Shown in pieces: positions 42,471 through 59,115 of a DNA stretch of 64,000 nucleotides. The DNA is from Porphyrobacter sp. HT-58-2 (lineage in GTDB: Bacteria > Pseudomonadota > Alphaproteobacteria > Sphingomonadales > Sphingomonadaceae). Under the pieces are notes generated by a model. The model ran no database searches. It was not told where the DNA came from and was given only the letters and a program-made list of their open reading frames with translations. The stretch spans positions 992,001 to 1,056,000 of the forward strand of contig NZ_CP022600.1 of NCBI RefSeq assembly GCF_002952215.1, given 5' to 3'. How positions within the stretch are numbered: position 1 is the first letter of the stretch; each line of letters opens with the position of its first letter. A program made the translations under genes and the position numbers.

Positions 42471-42488
42471 ATTCGCCTAAGGTACAAT
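42471..42488 (+). promoter_or_regulatory. Operator-like 18-mer upstream of exaC
   Basis: ATTCGCC-TAAG-GTACAAT: right half GTACAAT matches the shared element GTnCAAT exactly, left half matches ATTGnAC at 4 of 6 fixed bases. It lies 64 bp upstream of the start codon. Confidence 0.55.
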
Positions 42489-42552
42489 TGGCCAGCGCCG
42501 CTCCGAAGCGCACATTCGGCTCAGAAGGCCGTGTGGCGAGAGGAGAAGCACC

Positions 42553-44073
42553 ATGCTTGAGCAGGCTTTGAGCAATTTCGAAGGCAAGTCCCTGATCAAG
42601 GGCAAGTACGACAATTTCATCGGCGGCCGCTGGACCCAGCCGGTAAAGGGTCAGTATTTCGACAATATCTCGCCCGTGAACGGCAAGCGCGTGTGTCAGG
42701 TGGCGCGCGGCAGCGCTGAAGATATCGAGCTGGCGCTCGACGCCGCGCACAAGGCCAAGGCCGCCTGGGGGCGCACCTCGACCACCGAGCGTGCGAACAT
42801 CCTCAATCGCATCGCTGATCGGATCGAGGCCAATCTCGACATGCTGGCGCTGGTCGAGACGATCGACAACGGCAAGCCGATCCGCGAGACGACCGCCGCC
42901 GACCTGCCGCTGGCGGTTGATCACTTCCGCTATTTCGCCGGGTGCCTGCGCGCACAGGAGGGCGGGATTTCGGAGATCGATCACGACACCATCGCCTACC
43001 ATTTCCACGAACCGCTGGGCGTGGTCGGCCAGATCATCCCCTGGAACTTCCCGCTGCTGATGGCGGTATGGAAGCTCGCCCCGGCGCTGGCAGCTGGCAA
43101 TTGCGTGGTGCTGAAGCCCGCCGAACAGACCCCCATGAGCATCATGGTGCTGATGGAAGTGATCGGCGACCTCTTGCCCGAAGGCGTCGTCAACGTCGTC
43201 AACGGCTTCGGCATTGAGGCGGGCAAGCCGCTCGCCACTAGCCCGCGCATCGCCAAGATCGCCTTCACCGGGGAAACCACCACCGGACGGCTGATCATGC
43301 AATATGCCTCCGAGAACCTGATCCCCTGTACGCTCGAACTGGGCGGCAAGAGCCCCAACATCTTCTTTGCCGATGTGATGCGCGAGGATGACGACTATCT
43401 CGACAAGGCGCTGGAAGGTTTCGCGATGTTCGCGCTCAACCAGGGCGAGGTCTGCACCTGCCCGAGCCGCGCGCTAGTCCACGAATCGATCTACGACCGC
43501 TTCATGGAAAAGGCGATTGCCCGGGTGAACGCGATCAAGCTGGGCAGCCCGCTCGATTTCGACACCATGATCGGGGCGCAGGCTTCGAACGATCAGCTGG
43601 AGAAGATCCTGAGCTACATCGAAATCGGCAAGGGCGAAGGCGCGAAGGTGCTGGCCGGCGGTGGCCGCCATATCCACGAAGGCGAACTGGTAGAGGGCTA
43701 CTACGTCAAGCCGACCGTGCTCGAAGGCCACAACAAGATGCGCATCTTCCAGGAGGAAATCTTCGGCCCGGTGCTGTCGGTGACCACCTTCAAGGACAAT
43801 GACGAGGCGCTCGCCATCGCCAACGACACGCTTTACGGCCTCGGCGCCGGGGTGTGGAGCCGCGATGCCAACACCTGCTATCGCTTCGGCCGCGCGATCG
43901 AGGCGGGCCGGGTGTGGACCAACTGCTACCACGCCTACCCGGCCCACGCGGCCTTCGGCGGCTACAAGCAGTCGGGCATCGGGCGCGAGAACCACAAGAT
44001 GATGCTGGAACACTACCAGCAGACCAAGAACCTGCTCGTCAGCTACAGCCCCAAGGCGCTGGGCTTCTTCTGA
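42553..44073 (+). CDS. exaC: NAD+-dependent acetaldehyde dehydrogenase, ExaC type
   Basis: 506 residues, the length of ExaC. Rossmann loop ([34 protein letters not shown]), general base Glu in LELGGKSPN and catalytic Cys in [11 protein letters not shown], then [16 protein letters not shown] and [14 protein letters not shown]. The enzyme oxidises the aldehyde made by the PQQ alcohol dehydrogenase. A small DUF779 gene follows, the usual companion of this subfamily, and an 18-bp operator-like element precedes it. Confidence 0.93.
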
Positions 44074-44203
44074 GCCAGGTCACCGCAAGTCGCGTCTCCC
44101 GCACCACCTCTCTCTCTGGCGCGCGGCTTGCGGAAGTCCCCACGGGGCGGATGGCTCATCACGGGTTGTCCGCCCCGAACTTGTTCGTGAGGAGAGAGGC
44201 AAA

Positions 44204-44620
44204 GTGAACCAGCCAGCACGCCCGCCCGCCCGCATTCTGGCGACCCCGGCGGCGCAGGAATGGATCGAACGGCTGACGGCAAGCCACGGACCGCTGATGT
44301 TCCATCAGTCAGGCGGCTGCTGTGACGGATCCGCGCCGATGTGCTTCGTGCGCGGCGAATTCCGGGTGGGTGGGCAGGATGTGCTGCTCGGCCATATCGC
44401 AGAGGACACTCCGGTTTGGATCGGTGCGCGCCAGTTCGAATATTGGCGCCATACTCAGATCACCATCGACGTGGTGCCCGGTCGTGGTTCTGGCATGAGC
44501 CTGGAGGCGCCCGAAGGCGTGCGTTTCGTTACCCGTAGCCGGGTTTTCAGTGATGAAGAGGCCGCCATGCTCGCAGCCACCGGCGATCCTGCGTCGGGGG
44601 CGGACTGGTCGGCGGAGTGA
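44204..44620 (+). CDS. DUF779 family protein
   Basis: 138 residues from a GTG at 44204 with GAGAGGCAAA upstream. The Cys/Gly-rich MFHQSGGCCDGSAPMCF is the family signature (adjacent Cys pair and a third Cys). Function unknown, but the family is commonly co-encoded with ExaC/AldB-type acetaldehyde dehydrogenases, as here. It is in the same transcriptional direction 130 bp downstream. Confidence 0.88.
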   Translation: MNQPARPPARILATPAAQEWIERLTASHGPLMFHQSGGCCDGSAPMCFVRGEFRVGGQDVLLGHIAEDTPVWIGARQFEYWRHTQITIDVVPGRGSGMSLEAPEGVRFVTRSRVFSDEEAAMLAATGDPASGADWSAE

Positions 44621-44692
44621 TCCTCCATGCGGGGCCTTAAATCACTTGCCGCAGGGAAAAAATTCCAACACACTTGCGTAGGGGAGAGGGCA

Positions 44693-57239: not shown

Positions 57240-57257
57240 CTTGTCCCAAGGTCCTAT
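57240..57257 (+). promoter_or_regulatory. Operator-like 18-mer in the CXXCW/SoxYZ-like intergenic region
   Basis: CTTGTCC-CAAG-GTCCTAT: right half one mismatch from GTnCAAT. It lies 39 bp upstream of the SoxYZ-like start at 57297 and 9 bp upstream of the divergent CXXCW start codon, and argues against the ATG at 57258 as start. Confidence 0.45.
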
Positions 57258-57296
57258 ATGCGCAAGCCAGCAGCAGAGAATACATTGGCCATTGGT

Positions 57297-58091
57297 ATGA
57301 TAGGCAAGCTTCTCTCGCTCGTGATGCTCGCGGCGCCAGCCGCAGCACTGGCCCAGCCGCTTCCAGCGGATCCGCTCGATTCCCCGATGTGGGATTATCA
57401 CGCGGCCAAGCTGTTCAAGGGCGCAAGCGTGGTGTTTGACGATCGGGTGCAGGTTGTCCTGCCGATGCTTGCTGAAAACCAGCACGTGATGCCGGTCACT
57501 GTCGATGCCCGGATGCTGGGCGATGTGGTGCGGATCGTCATCTTCGCTGACTTGAACCCGATTCCGGTGGCGGTGGAGTATGAGCCGATCAAGGCGCAGG
57601 CCTTTGTCGCGACCCGGATCAAGCTTGATCAGCGCACTCCGGTGCGGGCGGCGGTGTTGACGGCGGACGGCGTGTGGCACGTTGCGGGAGGTTGGGTCGA
57701 TGCAGCCGGCGGTGGCTGTTCGGCCCCGCCGCTCAGCCGGGTGCGCGGCGACTGGGCCGATCATCTGGGTGAATTGCGCGGCGCGGTGTGGAGCACGGGC
57801 GAGGCGACCCGTCTGCGCCTGTCATTCCGTCACCCGATGGACACCGGGCTGGTCGAAAACATCCCGGTCTACAATATCGACGAACTGACGGTGAGGGACG
57901 CGGCCGGCACTGCGCTTGCGCGGATGGCGATCCATGCCTCGGTCAGCGAAGATCCCTCTTTCACTCTGATGCTGGCTCCCGGACTTGCGGGCGATCTGGC
58001 CGTAGCAGCGCGCGACACCGGGGGGCTGGAATTTGCCGGGACGCTTCCGCCTGGCAGCGGCAGCCGGGTCGCTGCCGCGATAATGCGATGA
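57297..58091 (+). CDS. Quinoprotein dehydrogenase-associated SoxYZ-like carrier protein
   Basis: 264 residues from the ATG at 57297, giving the signal peptide MIGKLLSLVMLAAPAAALAQ; an ATG at 57258 has a better ribosome site (AAGG) but would overlap the operator-like element. The N-terminal half is SoxY-like and ends in GGCSAP, where the conserved Cys carries a sulfur substrate in SoxY. The C-terminal half is SoxZ-like (HPMDTGLVENIPVYNIDELTV). The fused SoxY-SoxZ carrier is known only from PQQ alcohol oxidation clusters. The stop overlaps the next start (ATGA). Confidence 0.88.
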   Translation: MIGKLLSLVMLAAPAAALAQPLPADPLDSPMWDYHAAKLFKGASVVFDDRVQVVLPMLAENQHVMPVTVDARMLGDVVRIVIFADLNPIPVAVEYEPIKAQAFVATRIKLDQRTPVRAAVLTADGVWHVAGGWVDAAGGGCSAPPLSRVRGDWADHLGELRGAVWSTGEATRLRLSFRHPMDTGLVENIPVYNIDELTVRDAAGTALARMAIHASVSEDPSFTLMLAPGLAGDLAVAARDTGGLEFAGTLPPGSGSRVAAAIMR

Positions 58092-59052
58092 TCGCACGGC
58101 GGCACCTTCTGGCCGGGGCCATGGCTCTGCCGCTGGCTGCGCGCCTTGCTGCCCCCTGTGCCGCCAGCGCGCAGGAATTCGCCGGCACCTACACCCCTGA
58201 TGCGACCGCCATCGGCGATGGCATCTGGATGGTACGCGGCGCGGACGAGGCGCTCGGTTTCGCCAATGGCGGGGCGATTGCCAATTGCGTCATCATGGCG
58301 AGCGATACGGGCGCGATCGTGATCGACAGCGGCCCTTCGCTTGGTTTCGGACAGGCGCTCGGCGCGCTGGCACGCCGGTTGACCGGGCAAGCGGTCACGC
58401 GGGTCTACATCACCCATCTCCACCCCGATCACAGCTTCGGCAACGGTGCCTTTGCCGGAGCCGAGATCCATGCCCTGCCCGGGACGCGGGCCGAGCTTGA
58501 ACGCGACGGCAGCGGCTTTTCCGATGCGATGTACCGGATGCTGCATGGCTGGATGGCCGGGACCGAGGTGATCCTGCCAAACGCTGCTGCGGACCAGGGC
58601 GAGGTGATCGTTGGGGGACGCCGCCTCAGGTTGCTGGCGCTGTCCGGTCATAGCGCGGGCGATCTGGCCATTCTTGATGTGGCCAGCGGCACGCTGATCG
58701 CGGGCGATCTGGTGTTCCACAATCGCGCTCCGGCGACGCCTCATGCCGAATTCGGTGGTTGGCACGTGGCGCTTGATCGGCTCACCGCGACGTCGCATCG
58801 CCAGTTGGTGCCTGGCCATGGCCCGCTGTGCGGCACTGGCGTGGCAATTGCCCAGACGCGCGACTGCTGACCTGGCTGGAGACCAGTCTGCGCCATGCTG
58901 TTGCGAAAGGCCTCGACATGGCCGAGGCTGCCAACCTGCCGATCCCGGAGCGTTTTGCCGGCATGGCGGCGGCGCGATACGAACTGACCCGCTCGGTCTC
59001 GCATTTCTACCCCCGGCTTGAGGCTGAACTCCTGCCGCGCATCGACGGTTAG
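58088..59052 (+). pseudogene. Quinoprotein relay system zinc metallohydrolase (type 2), frameshifted
   Basis: The first part (58088-58870) gives 260 residues of metallo-beta-lactamase fold with a twin-arginine-like signal (IARRHLLAG), THLHPDHSFGN zinc motif, the His in SGHSAGDL, Asp in IAGDLVFHN and His in VPGHGP. It ends prematurely after QTRDC. The +1 neighbouring frame continues with LLTWLETSLRHAVAKGLDMAEAANLPIPERFAGMAAARYELTRSVSHFYPRLEAELL, the known C-terminal helical tail, up to 59052. One missing base near 58866-58867 (TGCTGA for TGGCTGA) explains it. It is either an inactivated or shortened protein, or a sequencing indel. Full length would be about 321 residues. Confidence 0.85.
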
Positions 59053-59097
59053 CCACCGCGCACCCCCCGCTTGTCCCTGAGGTCTTAGACCAAGGAA

Positions 59098-59115
59098 CGA
59101 GAACCAAAGTCCAAT
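59098..59115 (+). promoter_or_regulatory. Operator-like 18-mer upstream of the porin gene
   Basis: CGAGAAC-CAAA-GTCCAAT: right half exact, 75 bp upstream of the porin start. Confidence 0.5.

Follow-up and report, generated by a model that had tools for sequence, protein, structure and literature searches.

A conserved asymmetric box upstream of the genes of a PQQ alcohol-oxidation island in Porphyrobacter sp. HT-58-2

The described systems closest to the one treated here are summarized first. CrbR of Pseudomonas fluorescens, a LuxR-type response regulator for which ErdR is an alternative name (PMC8402216), acts at the ACTU box, an imperfect inverted repeat (e.g., TACTACCAAAGTCTAAT) spanning −52 to −36 of the acs start; the box is required for activation by CrbR, and four point mutations abolish promoter activity (PMC5715377). 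In Pseudomonas putida, AgmR is reported to activate the ped genes and the pyrroloquinoline quinone (PQQ) synthesis operon (PMC12997753), and PedR1 activates pedE, pedF and pedI (PMC12997753, PMC13390443). Term searches within the latter two papers returned no PedR1 operator, and the literature surveyed, which did not cover the subscription AgmR and P. putida HK5 promoter papers, described an operator neither for AgmR/ErbR/PedR1 nor for the PQQ clusters of sphingomonads. The styrene operon serves another substrate and offers an architectural parallel only: its phosphorylated response regulator StyR has a high-affinity site about −40 from the start (PMC2442086). Here we analyze a short conserved box that precedes the genes of a PQQ alcohol-oxidation island in Porphyrobacter sp. 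HT-58-2, within a stretch of 64,000 nucleotides (contig NZ_CP022600.1, positions 992,001–1,056,000; hereafter the window, to which coordinates refer unless stated otherwise).

The gene set of the island is largely that of the Pseudomonas ped cluster, the AgmR/ErbR/PedR1 regulon (PMC12997753, PMC13390443), the two having in common a porin, NosP, PedS1, the regulator, a rhodanese, the beta-propeller protein, the PQQ alcohol dehydrogenase, PedF, PedG, SoxYZ, SoxH and PedI. PedF, the beta-propeller protein, the SoxYZ-like carrier and the PQQ alcohol dehydrogenase all score above their NCBIfam cut-offs, which marks a ped-like oxidation cluster. The sphingomonad regulators, in contrast, appear with weak support to branch apart from the ped-linked regulators of other Proteobacteria, and most of the regulator-bearing genomes tested here are without PQQ synthesis genes. 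The proposed operator can be seen as a variation on a type of box already described: as judged by sequence, the island box resembles the ACTU box of CrbS/CrbR (MxtR/ErdR) in being an imperfect inverted repeat, in its core (ACCAARGT) and in its predicted position at about −52 to −36 (PMC5715377), whereas the register is GTCnAAT there and GTnCAAT, with the C fixed, here. The known system, moreover, governs acetate genes, and CrbS carries an SLC5 domain. Based on the observations below, we propose that the boxes are the operators of one regulon, and that the island's own phosphorylated NarL-family regulator very probably binds them as a class II activator.

Boxes in the island and the host genome

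An earlier note on this DNA had described six GTnCAAT-type sites as an 18-bp inverted repeat, and all six are present where it placed them. The cores read GTACAAT at 42482, GTTCAAT at 50755 (minus strand), GTGCAAT at 55615 and GTCCAAT at 59109; at 52187 a minus-strand GTGCAAT is paired with a plus-strand GTACAAT at 52198, and the core at 57251, GTCCTAT, has one mismatch. The symmetry held only in part. Allowing up to three mismatches, the strict palindrome ATTGNAC-N4-GTNCAAT occurs nine times in the window against 12.6 expected, and the motif was therefore recast asymmetrically as CCAARGTNCAAT. Aligned along the direction of transcription, the sites share this core together with a weak, degenerate mirrored half upstream. 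The count also had to be raised to seven, a minus-strand box of the rhodanese-like gene having been overlooked (Table 1). The near-perfect repeat between pedF and the beta-propeller gene probably serves both of these divergent genes.

The exact core occurs three times in the genome of 3,279,145 bases, each time inside the island, and tolerating one mismatch raises the count to 47, compared with 32 for the reversed pattern. We scored these matches with a matrix trained only on 23 other regions, i.e., out-of-sample for the host genome. The six sites take ranks 1–6 of the 47 (28.8, 26.4, 26.1, 20.3, 18.6 and 18.1), followed at rank 7 by a match within an open reading frame (ORF; 16.5). A scan of the window at scores above 11 returned eight places: the six sites, an in-ORF position at 26144 and the seventh box.

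No off-island regulon member emerged from this survey, which covered core matches with at most one mismatch and, at two or more mismatches, those with a −10 element attached; the 41 core matches outside the six sites all score 16.5 or less. Most off-island matches fall within ORFs by the ORF rule used. Two intergenic ones lie 4 and 7 nt upstream of an ORF (scores 9.9 and 7.0), and the remainder are at least 377 nt from the downstream ORF or, in four cases, have no downstream ORF called in the stretch covered. The rule is crude, in that the SoxYZ box is also classed as in-ORF because a long minus-strand ORF overruns the likely rhodanese start. A separate in-ORF match (score 13.1) is found at genome position 2434605, 68 nt upstream of a thiolase-like ORF.

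Conservation in relatives and promoter geometry

Boxes were footprinted in the 260 bases upstream of orthologue starts in up to 24 regions (the own region, 12 from the family and 11 loci), a box being called when its score exceeded the 99th percentile for random windows drawn from the 68 core-free regulator loci described below. The sites are kept upstream of orthologous genes at the frequencies in Table 1, with pedF boxed in 21 of 22 regions, and are absent at seven control genes (metallohydrolase, EthD-like, PedG-like, regulator, kinase, FIST and DUF779; 0 of 140 starts). The beta-propeller gene has a box on its own strand in 4 of 23 regions, a low count because its box is common with pedF, and the TonB receptor at 53272 was unboxed at both of its two starts. 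Leave-one-region-out matrices left the counts unchanged, at 103 of 117 target starts and none of the control starts; 40 column-shuffled matrices matched a mean of 0.8 targets and at most 7. Two porin promoters carry a pair of same-orientation exact cores 15 bp apart (G111:C1:1784126-1784152 and G011:C34:329331-329357), an arrangement that suggests cooperative binding.

Orthologues of the regulator (55–74% identity; next best 46%) were found in 13 of 199 family genomes, host included. We took up to 20 kb on each side of the regulator in the 12 other genomes (two stretches shorter), 450 kb altogether. The exact core occurs 36 times in this sequence and the reversed pattern not once, and 500 permuted patterns gave a mean of 0.12 and a maximum of 3. 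Conservation in these relatives lies well outside chance expectation. Genome-wide, the 13 regulator genomes hold 48 exact cores, of which 39 fall in the stretches taken on either side of the regulator, with the host island counted among these. An exact core also turns up in 97 of the remaining 186 genomes (109 of 199 overall), so that lone matches arise frequently by chance and information lies only in their clustering. The genus g68 genomes in which 4–11 exact cores occur were set aside as chance, the matches being scattered and the stretches having a lower G+C content, 0.41–0.59.

A wider sample of 80 regulator loci, from which one (L144, the same genome as G174) was later dropped, divides sharply: the 12 loci with the closest regulators contain 18 exact cores, spread over 10 of them, and the other 68 contain none. 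An exaA match is present in just one of these 68 core-free stretches. In the family itself, exaA orthologues of at least 76% identity occur in 12 of the 199 genomes, all of which have the regulator and the boxes; the thirteenth regulator genome (G140) has neither such an exaA orthologue nor boxes. Regulator, exaA and boxes are therefore co-inherited. The regulon is genuine, conserved and, as far as the core scan reaches, confined to the island. The regulon reading of the earlier note is supported on two counts, the conservation in orthologous clusters, where control genes of the same regions are unboxed, and the finding that the host genome, scanned with no more than one core mismatch allowed, has no match off the island as good as the six.

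Beyond this set, boxes precede exaA and pedF in a further genome of the same family (G420). We also scored 19 loci around exaA homologues of other Proteobacteria, taking scores over 14 as box-like, and found such sites upstream of exaA in three and of pedF in three. A box-like site with one letter changed (..CCAAAGTACCAT) lies 71–89 nt upstream of pqqA in four of the 19 loci (scores 16.6–18.4; minus strand; L283 3108, L285 6028, L289 6993 and L292 7047), all from non-sphingomonad Proteobacteria. These account for four of the six PqqA peptides located by pattern, the other two having no such site, and they fall beyond the exaC end and upstream of pqqA rather than before exaC; as judged from their sequence and placement, they are candidate AgmR operators. 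No convincing box was seen in L215, a gammaproteobacterial locus with a 66% identical exaA. Finally, the island is present on plasmids of Sphingobium, Azospirillum, Novosphingobium and Sulfitobacter (L317, L318, L319 and L320), with pedF boxed in all four and exaA in three (weakly in Sulfitobacter, 11.4), so that the regulon may move as a unit.

A −10-like hexamer, TAnnnT, follows 21–23 nt after the box at 19 of the 52 exact sites, against three occurrences at the remaining offsets between 10 and 44. Its position is exactly 21 nt downstream in 20 of the 22 boxed exaA promoters, and at a spacer of 22 or 23 in 9 of the 10 boxed SoxYZ promoters. Taking TAnnnT as the −10 element (−12 to −7) places the 18-bp box at about −51 to −34, and its predicted centre, near −42.5, is a class II activator position. 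The predicted −10 elements of the beta-propeller and SoxYZ genes stand so close to the start codons (52226–52241 and 57281–57299) that both transcripts would be nearly leaderless.

Two readings other than an operator bear on these data. Lying near −35 and being asymmetric, the box could instead be part of the core promoter recognized by an alternative sigma factor, which we regard as very improbable: a spacing of 21–23 nt to the −10 is too long for a −35 hexamer, the 18-bp span includes a mirrored half, the symmetric version is flanked by a predicted −10 on both sides, and a Pfam scan of 17 island and flanking proteins found no sigma factor. The regions are homologous, and the conservation could also reflect recent common descent of a functionless island sequence. 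We give this practically no weight, as the boxes are kept while the kinase and the PedG-like protein drop to 43–50% identity, the spacing from box to −10 is retained, control starts are unboxed, and box-like sites recur at exaA and pedF in a few of the out-of-family loci.

The candidate regulator and its rivals

The NarL-family regulator encoded within the island, which the earlier note had singled out as the binder, is a two-domain response regulator co-inherited with the boxes; residues D14, D15, D61 and K111 are invariant across 13 aligned sequences. Its gene sits in the ped-like cluster beside NosP-like and PedS1/NahK-type kinase genes (both scoring under the model cut-offs), the kinase comprising PAS_7, HisKA, HATPase_c and receiver domains. 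The 25 closest regulators form a single branch (100/100). How this branch stands to the ErdR-like and ped-linked groups has weak support, the forks between sphingomonad regulators and ped-linked regulators of other Proteobacteria reaching 91/82 and 87/80 in a tree that does not include PedR1. Based on sequence and linkage, the island's own ErdR/AgmR-class response regulator most likely reads the boxes.

We infer a scheme that covers binding by this regulator, its phosphorylation by the linked kinase, the sign of control (positive, not negative) and the signal. The phosphorylated regulator would bind each box as a dimer, with the strong half-site GTnCAAT adjoining the −35 region, the weaker mirrored half-site upstream and the centre near −42.5, and would, in the manner of a class II activator, bring in the vegetative RNA polymerase. 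From the symmetric box at 52187–52204 it would drive two divergent transcripts. The signal, which may be the alcohol, its aldehyde, nitric oxide or the cofactor, would probably enter through the linked NosP-like FIST protein and the NahK/ErcS-like hybrid kinase.

Could the island regulator be CrbR/ErdR itself, and the boxes ACTU boxes of an acetate-utilization regulon? The box and its position are near those of ACTU, the regulator finds its best NCBIfam match in the ErdR model, and the tree puts the sphingomonad regulators nearer to a large exaA-less group than some ped-linked ones are, with weak support. Yet the ErdR match reaches 165 bits, below the cut-off of 390, the linked kinase has no SLC5 domain (a search for an unlinked CrbS was not made), and the closest regulators stand on a branch of their own. 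The register differs, and no off-island core match scores like the six sites, acs and actP not having been looked up by name. We consider this identification quite unlikely.

A rival that is somewhat less improbable, though still unlikely, accepts the boxes as real operators and has them read by another NarL-family or unlinked regulator, with the linked one acting elsewhere. Three other full-length NarL-family matches, 32–38% identical and one with an in-frame stop, are present in the host genome. In genome G011, four boxes of a similar kind stand on a separate contig (L321: 2310, 6623, 16984 and 19072), near a response regulator other than this one and a kinase-like ORF; they may belong to a second regulon built on this class of box. 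The dispensability of the kinase PedS1 for PedR1 action in P. putida (PMC13390443) means that linkage is no proof of wiring. Set against this are the concentration of the exact cores of the 13 regulator genomes around the island regulator (39 of 48) and the plasmids, which carry regulator and boxes together.

Several of these and other observations weigh against binding and class II activation by the linked regulator. The second box set in G011 means that the box class is not exclusive to the island regulator, the dispensability of PedS1 in P. putida counts here too, and the physical linkage of regulator, kinase, exaA and boxes means that co-inheritance cannot single out the regulator as the binder. 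The G140 regulator is 56% identical and has a similar helix-turn-helix, yet its genome has no box. Four of the eight own promoters (exaC, lipid-anchored cytochrome, rhodanese and porin) are without TAnnnT at 15–31 nt, and the element is missing there in all 20 boxed porin promoters and in 14 of the 15 boxed exaC promoters. Seven of 22 exaC regions have no sense-strand box; five of these carry one on the opposite strand and two (G140 and L143) on neither. The target genes were picked because boxes precede them in this window. Lastly, most tested ErdR targets of P. aeruginosa rose upon erdR deletion (PMC9927353), so that activation is not a given.

The conserved box gives alphaproteobacterial PQQ/lanthanide-type alcohol oxidation a concrete operator, a promoter geometry and a candidate regulator, so that a few promoter fusions could probe how NosP, kinases of the NahK/ErcS type and regulators of the AgmR/ErdR class are wired together.

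Table 1. Boxes, predicted −10 elements and genes of the island (window coordinates; bits, domain-model scores)
Feature	Position	Strand	Details
Box of exaC-like aldehyde dehydrogenase	42471..42488	+	ATTCGCCTAAGGTACAAT; score 18.1; 15/22 orthologous starts boxed
Box of PQQ alcohol dehydrogenase (exaA/pedH type)	50755..50772	−	CTAGTTCCAAGGTTCAAT; score 26.1; 22/23 orthologous starts
Near-perfect inverted repeat between pedF (−) and beta-propeller gene (+)	52187..52204	both	score 28.8 minus, 4.7 plus
Box of lipid-anchored cytochrome	55604..55621	+	score 18.6; 5/5 orthologous starts
Box of SoxYZ-like gene (start taken as 57297)	57240..57257	+	score 20.3; 10/12 orthologous starts
Seventh box, rhodanese-like gene	57284..57301	−	ATCATACCAATGGCCAAT; score 14.6; 10/12 orthologous starts
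Box of porin	59098..59115	+	CGAGAACCAAAGTCCAAT; score 26.4; 20/21 orthologous starts
Predicted −10 of exaA, TAGTCT	50728..50733	−	21 nt past box
Predicted −10 of pedF, TAATCT	52160..52165	−	spacer 21
Predicted −10 of beta-propeller gene, TAGGAT	52226..52231	+	spacer 21
Predicted −10 of SoxYZ, TACATT	57281..57286	+	spacer 23
NarL-family response regulator, proposed binder	48175..48828	−	Response_reg and GerE over cut-off
PAS hybrid histidine kinase, NahK/ErcS type, proposed partner	45880..48075	+	NahK/ErcS C-terminal model 395.4 bits, cut-off 400
FIST protein, NosP-like, proposed sensor	44627..45877	+	NosP 366 bits, cut-off 450
exaC/pedI-like aldehyde dehydrogenase	42553..44073	+	Aldedh; 78–90% orthologues in 12/12 regions
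PQQ-dependent alcohol dehydrogenase	48904..50649	−	TIGR03075 789 bits; best solved relative 6zcw
Cytochrome c-550 PedF	51659..52093	−	TIGR04494 209.7 bits, cut-off 122
PQQ-dependent catabolism-associated beta-propeller protein	52239..53204	+	TIGR03866 363.5 bits, cut-off 287
Cytochrome c, lipoprotein-like N-terminus	55688..56269	+	Cytochrom_C 29.1 bits, cut-off 21.3; LTAC lipobox in translation
Rhodanese-like protein	56622..57230	−	PF00581 31.3 bits, cut-off 22.2
Quinoprotein dehydrogenase-associated SoxYZ-like carrier	57297..58091	+	TIGR04557 206 bits, cut-off 140
Porin, frame broken near 3' end	59191..60432	+	Porin_4
TonB-dependent receptor, 3' of boxed porin, same strand	61328..63376	+	Plug and barrel domains

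PQQ supply and neighboring genes

An Asp two residues past the catalytic Asp marks lanthanide use in PQQ alcohol dehydrogenases. The island enzyme has WDFDG aligned with the WDFDG of 6zcw (which we take to be PedH) and 6zcv, where 1flg has WDFSG, and would by this sequence criterion be of the lanthanide (PedH) type.

PqqC was found in two of the 13 regulator genomes (G011 and G140), and PqqE above its cut-off in the same two. In the host genome, searches for PqqD and PqqC found neither and PqqE only under the cut-off (PqqB was not searched for), and PQQ synthesis genes were accordingly discarded as boxed targets there. The other 11 (G000, G020, G027, G065, G067, G078, G111, G119, G155, G174 and G178) have neither PqqC nor an above-cut-off PqqE and are therefore probably non-makers of PQQ; all of them carry the PQQ alcohol dehydrogenase, and they are probable PQQ scavengers. 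This stands in contrast to the published inference that Alphaproteobacteria are mainly PQQ producers (PMC12124388). In G011, PqqC and PqqE lie some 8–10 kb from the regulator, and a core scan that allowed a single mismatch gave no match near them.

The TonB-dependent receptor downstream of the boxed porin is a candidate importer of PQQ or a lanthanide. Of 27 other loci, several of them too short to reach this place, 13 have a relative (53–64% identity) next to the porin, and G011, G140 and G027 have 44–46% identical homologues elsewhere in their genomes. In a low-confidence model of the receptor (predicted local distance difference test score 64), the top solved-structure match is PqqU with PQQ, with BtuB and others close behind. 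We rejected PqqU identity for two TonB receptors, which score 30.5 bits (P0002) and 60.5 bits (P0001) against an equivalog cut-off of 1200. Compared with PqqU, the described TonB-dependent PQQ importer (PMC12124388), the receptor at 61328–63376 thus shows a structural likeness, taken from a low-confidence model, and a sequence score of 30.5 against 1200.

These features allow a broader reading, which is possible though on balance doubtful. The box might be the previously undescribed operator through which regulators of the PedR1/AgmR–ErdR class control PQQ alcohol oxidation in Proteobacteria at large, and pqqA as well in those that make PQQ. In sphingomonads it might define a portable, self-regulated scavenger regulon, through which PQQ non-makers would switch on a lanthanide-type dehydrogenase together with their own outer-membrane uptake, i.e., the porin and a new, non-PqqU TonB-dependent PQQ importer.

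The remaining observations concern single genes. On the Sphingobium indicum plasmid, a TonB receptor occupies the equivalent place, with no match above the score limit used. Downstream of the beta-propeller gene, and perhaps transcribed from the same promoter, lies a second, FecA-like TonB receptor (53272–55596), for which a single weak relative (27%) was seen in another region. The porin frame breaks near 60190, where the ORF 59191–60432 runs on into unrelated residues and 60144–60620 continues the porin, reflecting either a sequencing error or a broken gene.

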